Of a DNA stretch of 64,000 bases, positions 44,854 through 51,520 are shown piece by piece; within the stretch, counting starts at the first letter, position 1; every line of letters starts with the position of its first letter. The notes under the pieces are model-generated. The model did no database searches. It worked only from the letters and a program-made list of their open reading frames with translations, and was not told the origin of the DNA. The position numbers were made by a program, and so were the translations under genes. Location: NCBI GenBank assembly GCA_002700385.1, contig PADC01000006.1:124001-188000 (forward strand), read 5' to 3'. This DNA is from Cycloclasticus sp. GTDB lineage: Bacteria > Pseudomonadota > Gammaproteobacteria > Methylococcales > Cycloclasticaceae.

Positions 44854-45290
44854 AAGCTAAATCCAAAGCGCAAGCCGTACTAGCACAAACTGGGAAAGGG
44901 CTTTTACCTAGAGTTTAGAAAAAACAAAGACGAACAGGGTACGAGCTCAAAAAGGGCGAATGAAAAATACGAAACCTTAGGCTTGTAAGCAACCTAACTT
45001 TCGAAGGAGCCACCACACAATTACTTAAGTGGTTTAGAAGTTCACCTTTTGACGTCCTCCCGACCAAACAAAATTACACAATTAGCGACGCTGTTAATGA
45101 TCACATAAACCACCTGAAAGCCTATAAATCTGATGACTCAGTGAAAACAGCAAAGGATGCACTGCATAGACATCTAACCCCGAAACTTGGTAGCACGAAT
45201 CTTGATACGTTAAAAACTATTGAATTAAAGAATTGGCTCAATAACTTAGTCAAATCAAGAAACCTTAAAAAATCTTCTCCAAACCGGGTA
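44854..45290 (+). pseudogene. Tyrosine-recombinase (phage integrase) N-terminal remnant
   Basis: The frame reads KLNPKRKPY, then TAG (44881-44883) where this integrase group has Trp, then HKLGKGFYLEFRKNKDEQG up to KYETLGL. There a stop and frameshift occur near 44990, and a second frame continues LTFEGATTQLLKWF, then TISDAVNDHINHLKAY and LTPKLGSTNLDTLKTIELKN, the SAM-like core-binding domain. It ends at about 45290, where the next gene begins, so the catalytic domain with the R-H-R-Y residues is missing. A stop, a frameshift and a truncation make it non-functional. Confidence 0.75.
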
Positions 45291-45776
45291 CTAACTATTT
45301 CTTCTTGGTTTTTTACTGCTCTTCTTTTTTTTAGCCGCTTTACTGCTGGCTTTTTTCGCTTTATCTTTAACTGCTTTTTTAGCTTTTAACTTAGCAACTT
45401 TCTTGGCTAATTCTTTCACCGCTAACTTTAATTTCTTTTTTTCTGCTTTCTTATCTTTATTTTTAGCCTCTTGCTGACCTTTATTCTGACTTTCCTTTGG
45501 TGTTTTTTTATTCTTCATCGGTTTTTTAGAAACTGCTTTTTCCTTATTCACCATCGAATCACTCACTTTTTCAGCAGCCTGCACATCAGCTGCTTTAAGT
45601 AGATCCTTTGCCTTCTTAATCGTCTGAAGCGATCGAGCACTAGCGAAGCCTGGTACCCCTGATAAACTTTCAACGCTCGCATTTGCTACATCAGCCACTG
45701 TTTTAAAACCATGTTTATTCAATACAATTGATGTTGCCTGACCAATTCCCGCTATTTCAATAACTAATTGTTCCAT
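45291..45776 (-). CDS. Helix-hairpin-helix protein with histone-like Lys/Ala tail
   Basis: 161 residues. The first 65 residues form helix-hairpin-helix-type motifs (IAGIGQATSIVLNKHGFKTV and LSGVPGFASARSLQTIKKA), a DNA-binding fold as in RuvA or PolX tails. From about residue 80 the chain is Lys/Ala-rich with KELAKKVAKLKAKKAVKDKA, resembling histone H1-like bacterial proteins. Predicted nucleoid or DNA-binding protein; the family is not one I can name. An AAGGAGT ribosome site precedes the ATG. It cuts into the integrase remnant, so its 3' end may mark a recombination junction. Confidence 0.7.
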   Translation of the reverse strand: MEQLVIEIAGIGQATSIVLNKHGFKTVADVANASVESLSGVPGFASARSLQTIKKAKDLLKAADVQAAEKVSDSMVNKEKAVSKKPMKNKKTPKESQNKGQQEAKNKDKKAEKKKLKLAVKELAKKVAKLKAKKAVKDKAKKASSKAAKKKKSSKKPRRNS

Positions 45777-46383: not shown

Positions 46384-47337
46384 TCAAACCAATTGGTAAG
46401 AGAGCTTATTACCCAACTTGGCCATCCATTTAGCTTCTTTATCTATATCAGCCAGATTCAACTCTTGTTCAAGAAAAAACGCCTTATCAATTGTCAACTG
46501 CATATGGCTCCCATCTGCTTTTAAGCTGAGTAAGTCAATCACTAATGGCTGCCGGTTATTATTTAGCAATATCGCTAAACGGAATAGACGAATTAAACGT
46601 GTTAATAATTTATGGCTAACATGACGAAGTAATGGCAGGCTTCGTCGCTTGAATTTTTTTCGACCATTACTCACCAATAAACCTAATAGTTGCTGCTCAT
46701 CTTGGTTATAACCAGGCAATTCGCTATTTGCCAAAATATAGCCCGAGTGTTTTTGAAAATCACTCACGCTAATTTGCTGGCCAACTTCATATAAATAAGC
46801 AGCTTCTTTTAATAATTCTTTTAATCCTGTCTGCTCTAAATGCCAATCTTCAGCTACCTGATTCCATAATAGCTCGCATGTTTCTGCCACTTGCTGTGCG
46901 TACTTACGATCAACATGGTAGCGCGCTTGCATGTTTTGACGGGTTAGTAGTCGTGTATTTTGCTCCTCATCCTGCTGCTCCATTTCATAGAGGACGCCTT
47001 CACGTAAAGCCGCACTGCAAAACTTGAGCTCGGTAATGCCTAGGCTTTTCATCACCGCGATCATGATGGCCACACCAGCAGGTAATACACTAGCTCGTGA
47101 TTCATCAATACCCACCCACGACAACTTTTCAAAACCAGCCTTCTGACATAATAAATCTTTTAACGCTAAAAGATCACTCAATAACAAGTGCTCGGTGTTC
47201 TCCCCCACTAAGCCAACCGTTTTAAAAAGCGCCTTAACTGTGCCGGAGGTGGCAAAGACGTTGTCCCATTCAAAGGCTTTAAAACGATGCGAACAAAACT
47301 CCAATTTCTGTAAGGCGGCTATTTCAGCTTTGTTAAA
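46384..47337 (-). pseudogene. ppx/gppA 3' part, separated by an IS30 insertion
   Basis: Continuation of the exopolyphosphatase/guanosine pentaphosphatase gene after the insertion. It reads FNKAEIAALQKLEFCSHRF, then SWVGIDESRASVLPAGVAI, which completes the Ppx/GppA catalytic module, followed by the HD-like helical C-terminal region to LGNKLSYQLV. Joined to the 5' part after removal of the element, it gives 504 codons, close to E. coli GppA and Ppx. On its own it lacks a start signal and the N-terminal active-site lobe. Confidence 0.88.
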
Positions 47338-47340
47338 TGC

Positions 47341-48417
47341 CGCAGATTTAATTCGCTAATGCGACACCGTTAGTTAAATGGGTCTTCGTTTTGAAGAATA
47401 CCTCGAAAGGTGTTTTATATCCAAGTATCTTTCGAGGGCGGTGATTTAGTCTATCCATCACCAATCGGGTTTCTTGTTGAGTCAGGTCATGTAATGAACG
47501 ATCTTTCTTTAAGTACTGCCGTATAAGCCCGTTCGTATTTTCATTAGTCCCTCGTTCCCATGAGGCATAAGGTCGAGCAAAGAAGACGGAGAGAGACAAG
47601 TTACTTTCAATCTGCTTATGCTGAGTAAACTCTTTACCATTATCGAGCGTGAGAGATCTGGCATATTGAGGATATTGACGGAGAGATTTTTCAATGGCTC
47701 TACGCGTGTTTTCTGCTGTACGTCGACCTAATGGCTCAATGAGGGTGAAACGTGACTTACGGTCAACCAAAGTGAGAGCAGCGCCTTGATGATTTTTACC
47801 AATAATCGTGTCACCTTCCCAGTGCCCTAAGCGCGAGCGGTTGTTAGCACCCACTGGCCGACGATCTAAGCCCTTTCTACCTTGCATTGTACCTCTGTGG
47901 TCTTTTGCTCCATACGTTTTCTTTCGCTGCTTCTGACAGCGAAGGTGTTTATGTAAGTTGCCACCTAAGATTCTGTCGTTCTGAACGTAATGATAAATCC
48001 ACACAGAACTGATTTGGATATACCGCTCTTTTGCAAGTCGCTGGCTAATTTGTTCTGGACTCCATTCTAAGCGTAATAGGCGCTCAACCTCTTGCCACAA
48101 GAGAAGCGTAATACGGTAATGCACTTTGTTGACCTGACGCGCCAGCGCTTTATATTGGGCTTGCTTAGGTCGATAACCTCGCATTCCTTGATTGCGGTTT
48201 ATCTCACGAGAGATAGTGGAGTGATGGCGGGCTAACGCCCGCCCTATAGCTCGATGACTAAGCCCTTGTTTCAATAAAGCGTGGATCTGGTATCGTTCTA
48301 TCTCAGTGAGTCGGCGATGTGTCATAACTACCTCTTTTTTGGCGATTAGAAATAGTGTGATTGTCGTCACTCACTACTTCTTTTCAAGAGGTGTCGCACT
48401 AGCGACTTAAATCCGCG
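47341..48417 (-). mobile_element. IS30-family insertion sequence, 1077 bp
   Basis: Bounded by 28-bp inverted repeats at 47341-47368 and 48390-48417 that differ at three positions and share TGCGACACC at their inner ends. A 3-bp target duplication, TGC, flanks it (47338-47340 and 48418-48420). It holds one transposase gene whose stop codon lies inside the inverted repeat. It splits ppx/gppA. Intact ends and an open transposase frame suggest a recent, possibly still mobile copy. Confidence 0.92.
47348..48325 (-). CDS. IS30-family transposase
   Basis: 325 residues from the ATG at 48325 (MTHRRLTEIERYQIHALL), preceded by AGAGG; an upstream in-frame start would add 15 residues without support. The N-terminal helix-turn-helix reads GLSHRAIGRALARHHSTISREI. 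The DDE catalytic core is visible as HWEGDTIIGK, TLDNGKEFTQH, and the Glu in ERGTNENTNGLIRQYLKK. The frame appears complete and undamaged. Confidence 0.95.
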   Translation of the reverse strand: MTHRRLTEIERYQIHALLKQGLSHRAIGRALARHHSTISREINRNQGMRGYRPKQAQYKALARQVNKVHYRITLLLWQEVERLLRLEWSPEQISQRLAKERYIQISSVWIYHYVQNDRILGGNLHKHLRCQKQRKKTYGAKDHRGTMQGRKGLDRRPVGANNRSRLGHWEGDTIIGKNHQGAALTLVDRKSRFTLIEPLGRRTAENTRRAIEKSLRQYPQYARSLTLDNGKEFTQHKQIESNLSLSVFFARPYASWERGTNENTNGLIRQYLKKDRSLHDLTQQETRLVMDRLNHRPRKILGYKTPFEVFFKTKTHLTNGVALAN

Positions 48418-48978
48418 TGCTTTTTTATTTAACTCTTTCAAAAAATAACGCTCAGTAAAGCTAATGCAGCCCATACTTTTACTTTCTCTGTATAGGGTGT
48501 CACAACCCTCACCCACGACTATTTCGGTACTGCCACCACCAATATCAATCACCAGGCTTCTATCGAGCAAGGCTTCACTACGCACCACGCCTTGGTAAAT
48601 AAGACGCGCTTCTTCACAGCCAGAAATAACCTCTATTGGAAAACACAAGGCTTGTTCTGCTAATGTTAAAAAGGCATTACGATTATTTGCCTCACGAATA
48701 GTATGTGTTGCTACAACCCTGACTTTTTCTACGTCACTTTCTTGTAATATATTGCCTAATTCCTTCAAGCTGGAGACAGCACGCAGAATTGCTTCGTAAT
48801 TCAACTCATTTTCTTTATTTAGCCCGGCTCTTAACTTAACGCGGTGCTTTATCTTTTTTACAGGTTCAAGCAGACCATTTTTCATACGAGCAATAATTAA
48901 ATGAAAGCTATTTGAGCCAAGATCTAATGCCGCTAATAACTCTGACCCATCACTTTTATTGCTCATTTTCTCTATCAT
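48367..48978 (-). pseudogene. ppx/gppA 5' part, exopolyphosphatase interrupted by IS30
   Basis: First 187 codons of the Ppx/GppA phosphatase, then 16-17 codons of IS sequence before a stop. The actin-like phosphate loop LAALDLGSNSFHLIIARM, the catalytic-Glu region VISGCEEARLIYQGV, and VIDIGGGSTEIVVGEG are all here. The gene would degrade polyphosphate or pppGpp. The ATG overlaps the ppk stop by 4 bp, the usual ppk-ppx coupling. The truncated product lacks the rest of the catalytic module and the C-terminal domain, so loss of function is expected. Confidence 0.9.
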
Positions 48979-51044
48979 ATTTTTTTACTTTCAATCGCTT
49001 TCAGGTAATCATATATGGCTACTTGTGAACGTATTTTGCGTTTATTGCCACGGGGCCTGTATTCATTAATTTGCTTCTTATCAAGCATTCTAGCTTTTGT
49101 TCTATCGCTCCATTGCACATTAAAAATATGGATAAGGCGTTGCTTAATATCCTCATCGTAAATAGGGCAACCCACTTCTATTCGGCGATCAATATTTCTG
49201 GTCATCCAATCGGCAGAACTAATAAAAACCTTCGGTTTACCGCCATTATGGAAAACACTCATCCGAGTATGCTCTAAAAAACGATCAACAATTGAAATAA
49301 TCTCAATATTCTCACTCTGGCCTTCCACTCCCGGTACTAATACGCACATCCCCCGAATAATCATACGAATTTTCACACCCGCACAACTCGCTTCATACAG
49401 CTTACTAATAATACTTTTATCATCGAGATTATTCACTTTTAATAGAATTTCTGCCTTATGGCCTTTTTTGGCCATTTTAATTTCATTTTCAATCGACCGA
49501 TTGATCCAATCTCGCGTGCTGATAGGCGAAACAATTAAATGCTTAAACTCTTTACTCTTATAGCTATGAACGATGAAATCAAAAACATCAATGACTTCTT
49601 TTGTAATGTCTTCATTACGGGTAAACAAGCTGAAATCGGTATAGATTTTTGCTGTTTTCTCGTGGAAGTTACCTGTACCAATATGAGCGTAGTACACGGC
49701 TTTATCCTTTTCGTGCCGCCCAATTAAACATAGTTTGCTATGGCATTTTAAAGAAGGAACACCAAATTCAACCTTTACCCCGCCTTCGGTTAACACCTTG
49801 GCCCACGCTATATTTGCCTGCTCATCAAACCGCGCATGTAGCTCTACAACAACCAATACTTTTTTACCGTTTCTTACCGCATTAATGAGTGATTTGATAA
49901 TACGGCTATTGCTTGCGACACGGTACACGCTAATTTTTATTTCAAAAACAGCCGGGTCAAAAGCAGCCTCACGGAGCATTTCTGTAAAATGACTAAATTT
50001 GTGATAAGGATAACTCAGCAGAATATCTTTCTTTTTAATCGCTTGAAAAACACTGGGGTAATTAGCGAAGTCCTGAGAGGTTATAGCTGGCATTTTAGGG
50101 TTTTCCAGGTACTTCCTCCCTACATTTGGAAAACTTATAAAGTCTCTAAAATTATGATATCGACCACCCGGTATAACGCTGTCATGCCTAGAAATACCCA
50201 GCTTACTTTTTAGCATGCCAATCGCTGTCGAAGACATATCACGCTCATATACAAAGCGAACTGGCTGCGAATTGAGTCGCTGTTTGAGCCCTACTGACAT
50301 TCTTTCTAACAAGGACTGGTCAATATCATCGGTTAAGTCAAAGTCCGCATCACAGGTCATTTTCATTGAATAAACATGGTGTTGTTTATAATCAAAGTAG
50401 GGGGAAAAAATGTCATCAAAACAGTAACGAATCACATTGTCTGACATAATAATATTTTTGCGCCGCTTACCTTTCTCACGCGGCAATTCAATAAAACGTG
50501 GCGAATCATTCGTTGGGATAGCTATCGCCGCATACTGAATTACATCCCCGTTTATCATTTCACAAATTAAGTACGTTAAACCATCTTTTAATAAGGGCGC
50601 TAAATCCGTTTCTTTATTAATGATGATTGGTTCTACATACCGCTTTAATTTAGTGTCAAAGTATTCCCTAAGCCAATGCCCTTGCTCTTCACTCAGCTGA
50701 TCTTCATTGATAAGAAAAATATGGTGCTCTGCAAGCCCTTTTAATACATCCAAATAAATAACATCAAAATCCTCTTGAAGCTTTAATACTTTTTTCTGAA
50801 TAGCGCGTAAGAGATTTTTTGTAGGTGTCTCATCCTCCAGGCTCTTCTCAATAAGCACCTTACGCTTAACATTAGCTACACGAACACGGAAAAACTCATC
50901 CAAATTATTAGAAAATATTCCTAAAAACCTTACTCGCTCCACAATTGGAACCGACTTATCTGCCGCCTCCTGTAGAACCCGTTCATTGAACGATAGCCAA
51001 CTGAGTTCTTTTTCAACATACTTATGCTCAACAATTTTTGTCAC
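48975..51044 (-). CDS. ppk: Polyphosphate kinase
   Basis: Makes inorganic polyphosphate from ATP at the inner membrane; 689 residues, the normal PPK1 length. The N-terminal domain starts with ELSWLSFNERVLQEA, where PPK1 proteins are highly conserved. The phospholipase-D-like C-terminal half contains the autophosphorylated His in YYAHIGTGNFHEKTAK and a second His in SVFHNGGKPKVFISSADWM. It is the first gene of a ppk-ppx pair whose second member is broken by an IS. Confidence 0.96.
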   Translation of the reverse strand: MTKIVEHKYVEKELSWLSFNERVLQEAADKSVPIVERVRFLGIFSNNLDEFFRVRVANVKRKVLIEKSLEDETPTKNLLRAIQKKVLKLQEDFDVIYLDVLKGLAEHHIFLINEDQLSEEQGHWLREYFDTKLKRYVEPIIINKETDLAPLLKDGLTYLICEMINGDVIQYAAIAIPTNDSPRFIELPREKGKRRKNIIMSDNVIRYCFDDIFSPYFDYKQHHVYSMKMTCDADFDLTDDIDQSLLERMSVGLKQRLNSQPVRFVYERDMSSTAIGMLKSKLGISRHDSVIPGGRYHNFRDFISFPNVGRKYLENPKMPAITSQDFANYPSVFQAIKKKDILLSYPYHKFSHFTEMLREAAFDPAVFEIKISVYRVASNSRIIKSLINAVRNGKKVLVVVELHARFDEQANIAWAKVLTEGGVKVEFGVPSLKCHSKLCLIGRHEKDKAVYYAHIGTGNFHEKTAKIYTDFSLFTRNEDITKEVIDVFDFIVHSYKSKEFKHLIVSPISTRDWINRSIENEIKMAKKGHKAEILLKVNNLDDKSIISKLYEASCAGVKIRMIIRGMCVLVPGVEGQSENIEIISIVDRFLEHTRMSVFHNGGKPKVFISSADWMTRNIDRRIEVGCPIYDEDIKQRLIHIFNVQWSDRTKARMLDKKQINEYRPRGNKRKIRSQVAIYDYLKAIESKKI

Positions 51045-51160: not shown

Positions 51161-51520
51161 TTAAGTCTCTTTTTCAAAAACAACATCAGCCCATTCAGAA
51201 AATCTACTTCTTACAACATTTGTAAGGTTGATACCTTGAATTCTAACGTGACTAGAGTTTTCTTTACCGCATTGAGACATCATAAATGTCAGCGCATTAG
51301 TGGCTTTACCTAAGTACGGGGTATCAATTTGATTATGACTGCCCACAATAATGAACTTATTGTCTTCATCATTACGTGACAAAATCGTTTTCATTGTGCT
51401 TCTACCCCAATTCTGAGATTCATCAAGTATAACAATTGAGCCCAGCCAAACGTAGTTCTTACCTGTACCTGCAGATATAAAAAAACAATTACGTTTCAAA
51501 GCATTGACTAATAACATCAC
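51161..51520 (-). pseudogene. PhoH-like ATPase remnant, internally deleted
   Basis: The frame begins near a Walker A remnant ISAGTGKN, where the usual GTGKT Thr is lost, and passes directly to GSIVILDESQNWGRSTMKTI, the Walker B part of PhoH proteins. The family normally has over 60 residues between them. FIIVGSHNQIDTPYLGKATN matches the PIN-PhoH (YlaK-like) motif TGD-xx-QID-PYLD. The PIN domain and N-terminus are absent, and an in-frame stop lies about 30 bp upstream of the first possible start. Likely non-functional. Confidence 0.6.

Follow-up and report, generated by a model that had tools for sequence, protein, structure and literature searches.

An IS30-family element splits the ppx gene of a Cycloclasticus genome that also carries two PPK2 genes

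The ppx gene of the Cycloclasticus genome analysed here (G000) is split by an insertion sequence of the IS30 family, which represents a real and ordinary IS knock-out and a new instance of a known mechanism. Taken as a whole, the sequence data are very probably best explained by a single recent transposition of this element, which would have inactivated the only gene of the Ppx/GppA family found in the genome. The intact polyphosphate kinase PPK1 would still make polyphosphate, and two kinases of the PPK2 family, as judged from the known members of that family, would spend it by transferring phosphate onto nucleotides instead of hydrolysing it to free phosphate.

Results

The window, i.e., the whole stretch of 64,000 nucleotides that was analysed, corresponds to positions 124001-188000 of contig C12 of G000, a genome of 2,516,899 bp in 13 contigs that is listed as 99.99% complete. 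The IS30-family element of 1077 bp (47341-48417, no strand assigned), recognized by its terminal repeats, the empty site and its occurrence as a single genome copy, interrupts ppx at codon 187 of 504. Its left terminal inverted repeat of 28 bp (47341-47368, plus strand) is identical in 25 of 28 positions to the right one (48390-48417, minus strand; 28 bp), as shown by comparison of the repeats, and the target duplication TGC is present on both sides (47338-47340 and 48418-48420, both given for the plus strand). The extent of the element, its 28-bp ends and the 3-bp duplication had been proposed in the original prediction, and all of these coordinates were found to be correct. As had also been proposed, ppx is disrupted into two halves flanking the element, a 5' part with codons 1-186 and codon 187 at the junction (48421-48978, minus strand; match to positions 1-157 of PF02541, 7e-48), and a 3' part with codons 187-504 plus the stop codon (46384-47340, minus strand; PF21447, 3.9e-39, and PF02541, 6.3e-15). 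The open frame of the 5' part does not end at the junction but continues into the element for about 16 further residues (203-aa ORF, 48367-48978), and the first ATG, GTG or TTG codon in the open frame of the 3' part is a TTG at 47304 with no visible ribosome-binding site. The N-terminal product would retain about the first 187 of the 504 residues and the C-terminal part would lack a good start, so that a working exopolyphosphatase would not be expected from this locus.

If the flanks are joined with one copy of TGC, the resulting empty site of 1515 bp consists of 504 codons plus a stop codon with zero internal stops, which bears out the claim that removal of the element restores 504 in-frame codons; the reading frame is also preserved if both copies of TGC or none are kept. 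The rejoined Ppx and the intact Ppx of G007, the nearest relative, which also has 504 aa, align without gaps at 87.3% identity; identities to the Ppx proteins of five further genomes of the genus are 67-78%. A 3-bp match by itself has a chance of 1 in 64, and the case for an IS30 insertion is therefore made from the repeats, the intact IS30 transposase and the restored uninterrupted homology taken together. Directly upstream, the gene for polyphosphate kinase 1 (ppk1; 48975-51044, minus strand) is intact as expected from the original prediction, coding for 689 aa with matches to all four Pfam PPK1 domains and to TIGR03705 (8.3e-241). On the minus strand, ppk is followed by ppx, with an overlap of 4 bp between the end of the former and the start of the latter, and the window's ppk shares 80% identity with the ppk of Cycloclasticus sp. 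46_120_T64.

Insertion sequences of the IS30 family are bounded by terminal inverted repeats, roughly 20-30 bp in length, and generate target duplications of 2-3 bp. The element in ppx has ends of the same kind, with 28-bp repeats (25 matches) and TGC flanking each side, and shares with the family the transposase architecture, the terminal inverted repeats and the 3-bp target duplication. The transposase gene (47348-48325, minus strand) codes for 325 aa from an ATG, or for 340 aa if a GTG at 48370 is taken as the start, and the product matches NF033563 over its full length (model positions 1-267 of 267; 5.9e-83, 278.6 bits at a cut-off of 80). It also matches PF13936 and PF00665, the HTH and rve (DDE) domains of the IS30 type being present, and residues 172, 228, and 262 are presumably the catalytic D, D, and E. 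Nothing close to the element was found in plasmids among the matches listed: the best of these are Acinetobacter IS30 transposases, several of them annotated as IS18, but even the best one listed is only 45.2% identical to the transposase analysed here. A pattern scan of viral contigs returned no relative, and in the 12 other genomes of the genus that were searched long matches did not exceed 43% identity, with one piece of 24 residues reaching 67%.

The presence of only one copy of the element in the whole genome also bears on the possibility that it was placed into ppx by an assembly artefact. The genome is a draft in 13 contigs, but the assembly holds no second copy, both junctions have exact element ends together with the target duplication, and the element lies well inside a contig of 811,841 bp. 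Repeat-driven misassembly is unlikely for an element that is single-copy and embedded in such a contig, and we consider an artefact of this kind extremely improbable.

Neither of the two ppx halves contains a stop codon or frameshift of its own. The dN/dS values relative to G007 are 0.077 for the 5' part and 0.068 for the 3' part of ppx, compared to 0.052 for ppk, and of the sites that are invariant in the six other homologues, 11 of 263 are changed in the ppx of G000, the corresponding values for the other six ranging from 5 of 257 to 19 of 271. On the opposing side, with G008 as outgroup, two to three times more of the assigned amino acid changes in ppx fall on the G000 branch than on the G007 branch, namely 10 vs. 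3 in the 5' part (9 unassigned) and 20 vs. 10 in the 3' part (11 unassigned), although ppk exhibits the same tendency, with 23 vs. 14 changes (18 unassigned). Because neither half has decayed, the insertion looks recent, and there is no clear sign of a long disuse of ppx, although the event is not datable because synonymous differences are near saturation in most other pairs. The loss of ppx is most likely young and possibly confined to the strain. It may even have occurred during laboratory or enrichment growth, in which case the insertion would be uninformative about the species. We regard such an origin as a real but less probable option, which is compatible with the preferred explanation of a recent inactivation of ppx. 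It agrees with the undecayed state of both ppx halves and the single copy of the element, and nothing speaks directly against it, but a single sequenced genome fits a natural loss equally well, the genome collection searched containing one genome per species. The open and conserved state of both halves might also be taken to indicate that these are translated separately and that the chains reassemble into a functional enzyme. This appears hardly credible, since some 1.1 kb of the element separate the halves, the 3' part starts at best with a TTG codon lacking a visible ribosome-binding site, and the recency of the insertion already accounts for the conservation.

The second ppx or gppA paralogue considered in the original prediction was not found in G000, as a six-frame search of the whole genome for further genes of the Ppx/GppA family with PF02541 yielded the two ppx halves only. 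The uninterrupted gene carries the domains of the Ppx/GppA family, as seen from the PF02541 and PF21447 matches of the halves and from the single-frame relatives in six genomes of the genus. The scores of the two halves with PRK10854 (ppx) vs. PRK11031 (gppA) are 184.3 vs. 180.8 and 202.7 vs. 190.6 bits, all of them below the cut-offs, as expected for halves. Among solved chains, the intact relative from G007 matches the exopolyphosphatases 8jgw (7.1e-100) and 1u6z (1.6e-99) best and the GppA 6pbz less well (1.7e-83), with 338 bits to solved Ppx and 284 bits to solved GppA. Gene order and domain content are like those of ppk-ppx operons with the exopolyphosphatase Ppx (1u6z, 2flo; we take both chains to be Ppx of E. 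coli), the difference in G000 being the interruption of ppx at codon 187 of 504. Because of the proximity of the G007 relative to solved exopolyphosphatases and the usual ppk-ppx order, the split gene is likelier to code for the exopolyphosphatase Ppx than for GppA. As for pppGpp turnover, which according to the original prediction may be altered if the gene is GppA-like, one RSH protein of 721 aa was found in G000, in which the motifs of both the HD hydrolase and the synthetase are present, as read by eye; since the HD hydrolase motif is kept, G000 can probably still hydrolyse ppGpp. The RelA/SpoT-type gene of G000 is located on contig C11 (locus L140, 231-2396); of the 13 genomes of the genus searched for such matches, 12 contain one each, one (73% complete) contains none, and none contains two.

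A view on the genus shows that ppk (PF02503) is present in seven of 18 genomes, and the ppx matches that pass the cut-off come from the same seven, the split copy included. The ppk-ppx pair is intact in the six others, where ppx is a single open frame of 502-506 codons. The remaining 11 genomes lack ppk, and ten of them are devoid of any PF02541 match; G013 shows a weak one (8.2e-5) that is below the cut-off and was scored as absent. Because five of these 11 genomes are listed as 93-100% complete, the absence of ppk is not merely due to poor assembly. The neighbours of the operon differ among the seven loci (L091-L097), with a downstream helix-hairpin-helix gene common to G000 and G007. Together with the absence of the pair from 11 of 18 genomes, these varied neighbours point to repeated loss or movement of ppk-ppx, the two genes being gained or lost together within Cycloclasticus. 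A tRNA-flanked island holding ppk-ppx was also considered, with tRNA-Glu and tRNA-Ala genes on one side and an integrase-like fragment on the other, and was rejected: no exact repeat of 13 bp or longer links the tRNA stretch to the other parts of the window that were compared, its longest exact match near the integrase-like fragment is 8 bp, as against 8-15 bp for random pieces of the window, and in the six other genomes no tRNA gene was found within the 6.4-18 kb surrounding the operon. Two short frames of the window may be recorded as probable or possible remnants: a frame of 119 aa at 51161-51520, which adjoins two tRNA genes and whose match to PhoH is confined to the C-terminal part (5.5e-13), is probably a gene remnant, and one of 82 aa at 45141-45389, with a weak match to the N-terminal domain of phage integrases (3.5e-4, below the cut-off), is possibly derived from an integrase.

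Among the 18 genomes of the genus, PPK2 is restricted to G000, which contains two intact genes for it (312.5 and 243.8 bits with PF03976; cut-off 22.3), both on contig C3: PPK2a (locus L118, 8485-9228) and PPK2b (locus L119, 9010-9846). Both match solved PPK2 proteins and contain a Walker A motif. In comparison with the single-domain PPK2 proteins of the P. aeruginosa type (TIGR03707, cut-off 301.8 bits), PPK2a scores above the family cut-off (339.9 bits), but PPK2b below it (277.7 bits). The motif NRSW of PPK2a has an Asn at the place where PPK2b has an Asp, and this position presumably corresponds to the Walker B Asp site. PPK2a stands at the beginning of a stretch that runs from position 8473 of L118 to at least 18000. 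Two pieces of this stretch, about 9.2 kb in total, align with 99.2% identity to a plasmid of Methylophaga thalassica IOM01 from deep-sea sediment (NZ_CP143310.1, typed as non-mobilizable), the PPK2a protein itself being 98.8% identical to its counterpart there. Genes annotated in the plasmid for an ABC exporter and a cation:proton antiporter adjoin that counterpart, and one for an IS982 transposase immediately precedes it. The stretch in G000 carries the exporter and the antiporter as well and, going by the plasmid annotation, also a fatty acid cis/trans isomerase. The G+C content is 53% for the 18-kb stretch of L118, 46% for PPK2a itself and 41% for the window. The sequence between 8473 and 18000 appears to be DNA shared recently between the marine genera Cycloclasticus and Methylophaga. 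PPK2b is located among core genes, between those for a NUDIX and an HD-GYP protein (L119, 8482-11248). Relatives of the adjoining HD-GYP gene with 67-81% identity occur in eight other genomes of the genus, and no PPK2 gene accompanies them in the flanks examined.

Discussion

The disruption of ppx next to an intact ppk1 had led to the original prediction that the strain should make polyphosphate but degrade it less readily. The genetic basis of this claim stands, but the consequence is too strongly worded, as the two intact PPK2 genes had been overlooked and the encoded kinases could spend polyphosphate. According to a review, single-domain PPK2 enzymes work mainly in the polyphosphate-consuming direction; those tested phosphorylate ADP from polyphosphate, and PaPPK2 prefers polyphosphate use over synthesis with a ratio of 75 (PMC3163519). 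Polyphosphate can therefore probably still be consumed in G000, via phosphate transfer rather than hydrolysis.

An insertion sequence within a metabolic gene is commonplace, and it is the genomic setting that adds value to this case: among the 18 genomes of the genus, the single one that has ppk but no working ppx is also the single one that has PPK2. G000 is thereby a natural test case for whether kinases can take over from hydrolysis in drawing down polyphosphate. As an extension of the preferred explanation, it may be proposed that Ppx became dispensable once PPK2 had been acquired, one copy at least by recent import. Loss of Ppx would then have been tolerated or even favoured, and the role of polyphosphate would have shifted from a source of free phosphate to an energy store for ATP and GTP. 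One and the same genome among the 18 has both the broken ppx and PPK2, and both events look recent, as judged for PPK2a from the near identity with the Methylophaga plasmid. However, this is a single coincidence with a chance of 1 in 7 among the ppk-bearing genomes of the genus, and in 141 genomes of the class (minimum completeness 97) a missing Ppx does not go along with a higher frequency of PPK2. In this survey, in which PPK1 was scored by PF17941, unlike the genus count by PF02503, 91 of the 141 genomes have a strong match for PPK1. With G000 excluded, Ppx/GppA is kept in 81 of 90 and missing in nine, and PPK2 occurs in five of these nine genomes vs. 68 of the 81 with Ppx/GppA (Fisher p 0.06, in the opposite direction). 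Fourteen PF02541 matches below the curated cut-off and three weak PF17941 matches were dropped from the count, the latter from G073 (7.5e-7) and G075 (3.0e-6), which exceed the cut-off but lie far behind all other matches in strength, and from G147 (9.0e-4), which is below it. If G073 (with PPK2) and G075 (without PPK2) are kept, the values are 6 of 11 vs. 68 of 81, and the conclusion is unchanged. Genomes of the class that have PPK1 but lack Ppx are uncommon, though not rare, PPK2 is not enriched in them, and a class-wide replacement of Ppx by PPK2 is unsupported, the trend being opposite. The coincidence in G000 is for this reason a lead and not a demonstrated cause, and we consider the proposed dependence of ppx loss on PPK2 gain unlikely. 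A published survey of 944 genera gives ppk1 plus ppx as the most abundant pair, present in 627 of them (PMC5932413). Judged by titles and the beginnings of abstracts, the open-licence literature yielded no natural insertion sequence in ppx, and for Cycloclasticus in combination with polyphosphate neither term appeared in any title or abstract of the open-licence literature searched.

Somewhat more doubtful still is the idea that a swap of polyphosphate sinks is in progress, in which a plasmid-shared PPK2 was gained and the hydrolytic Ppx was then lost to an IS element. If it were true, polyphosphate in a marine hydrocarbon degrader would no longer act as a reserve of phosphate but as an energy store for the charging of nucleotides.
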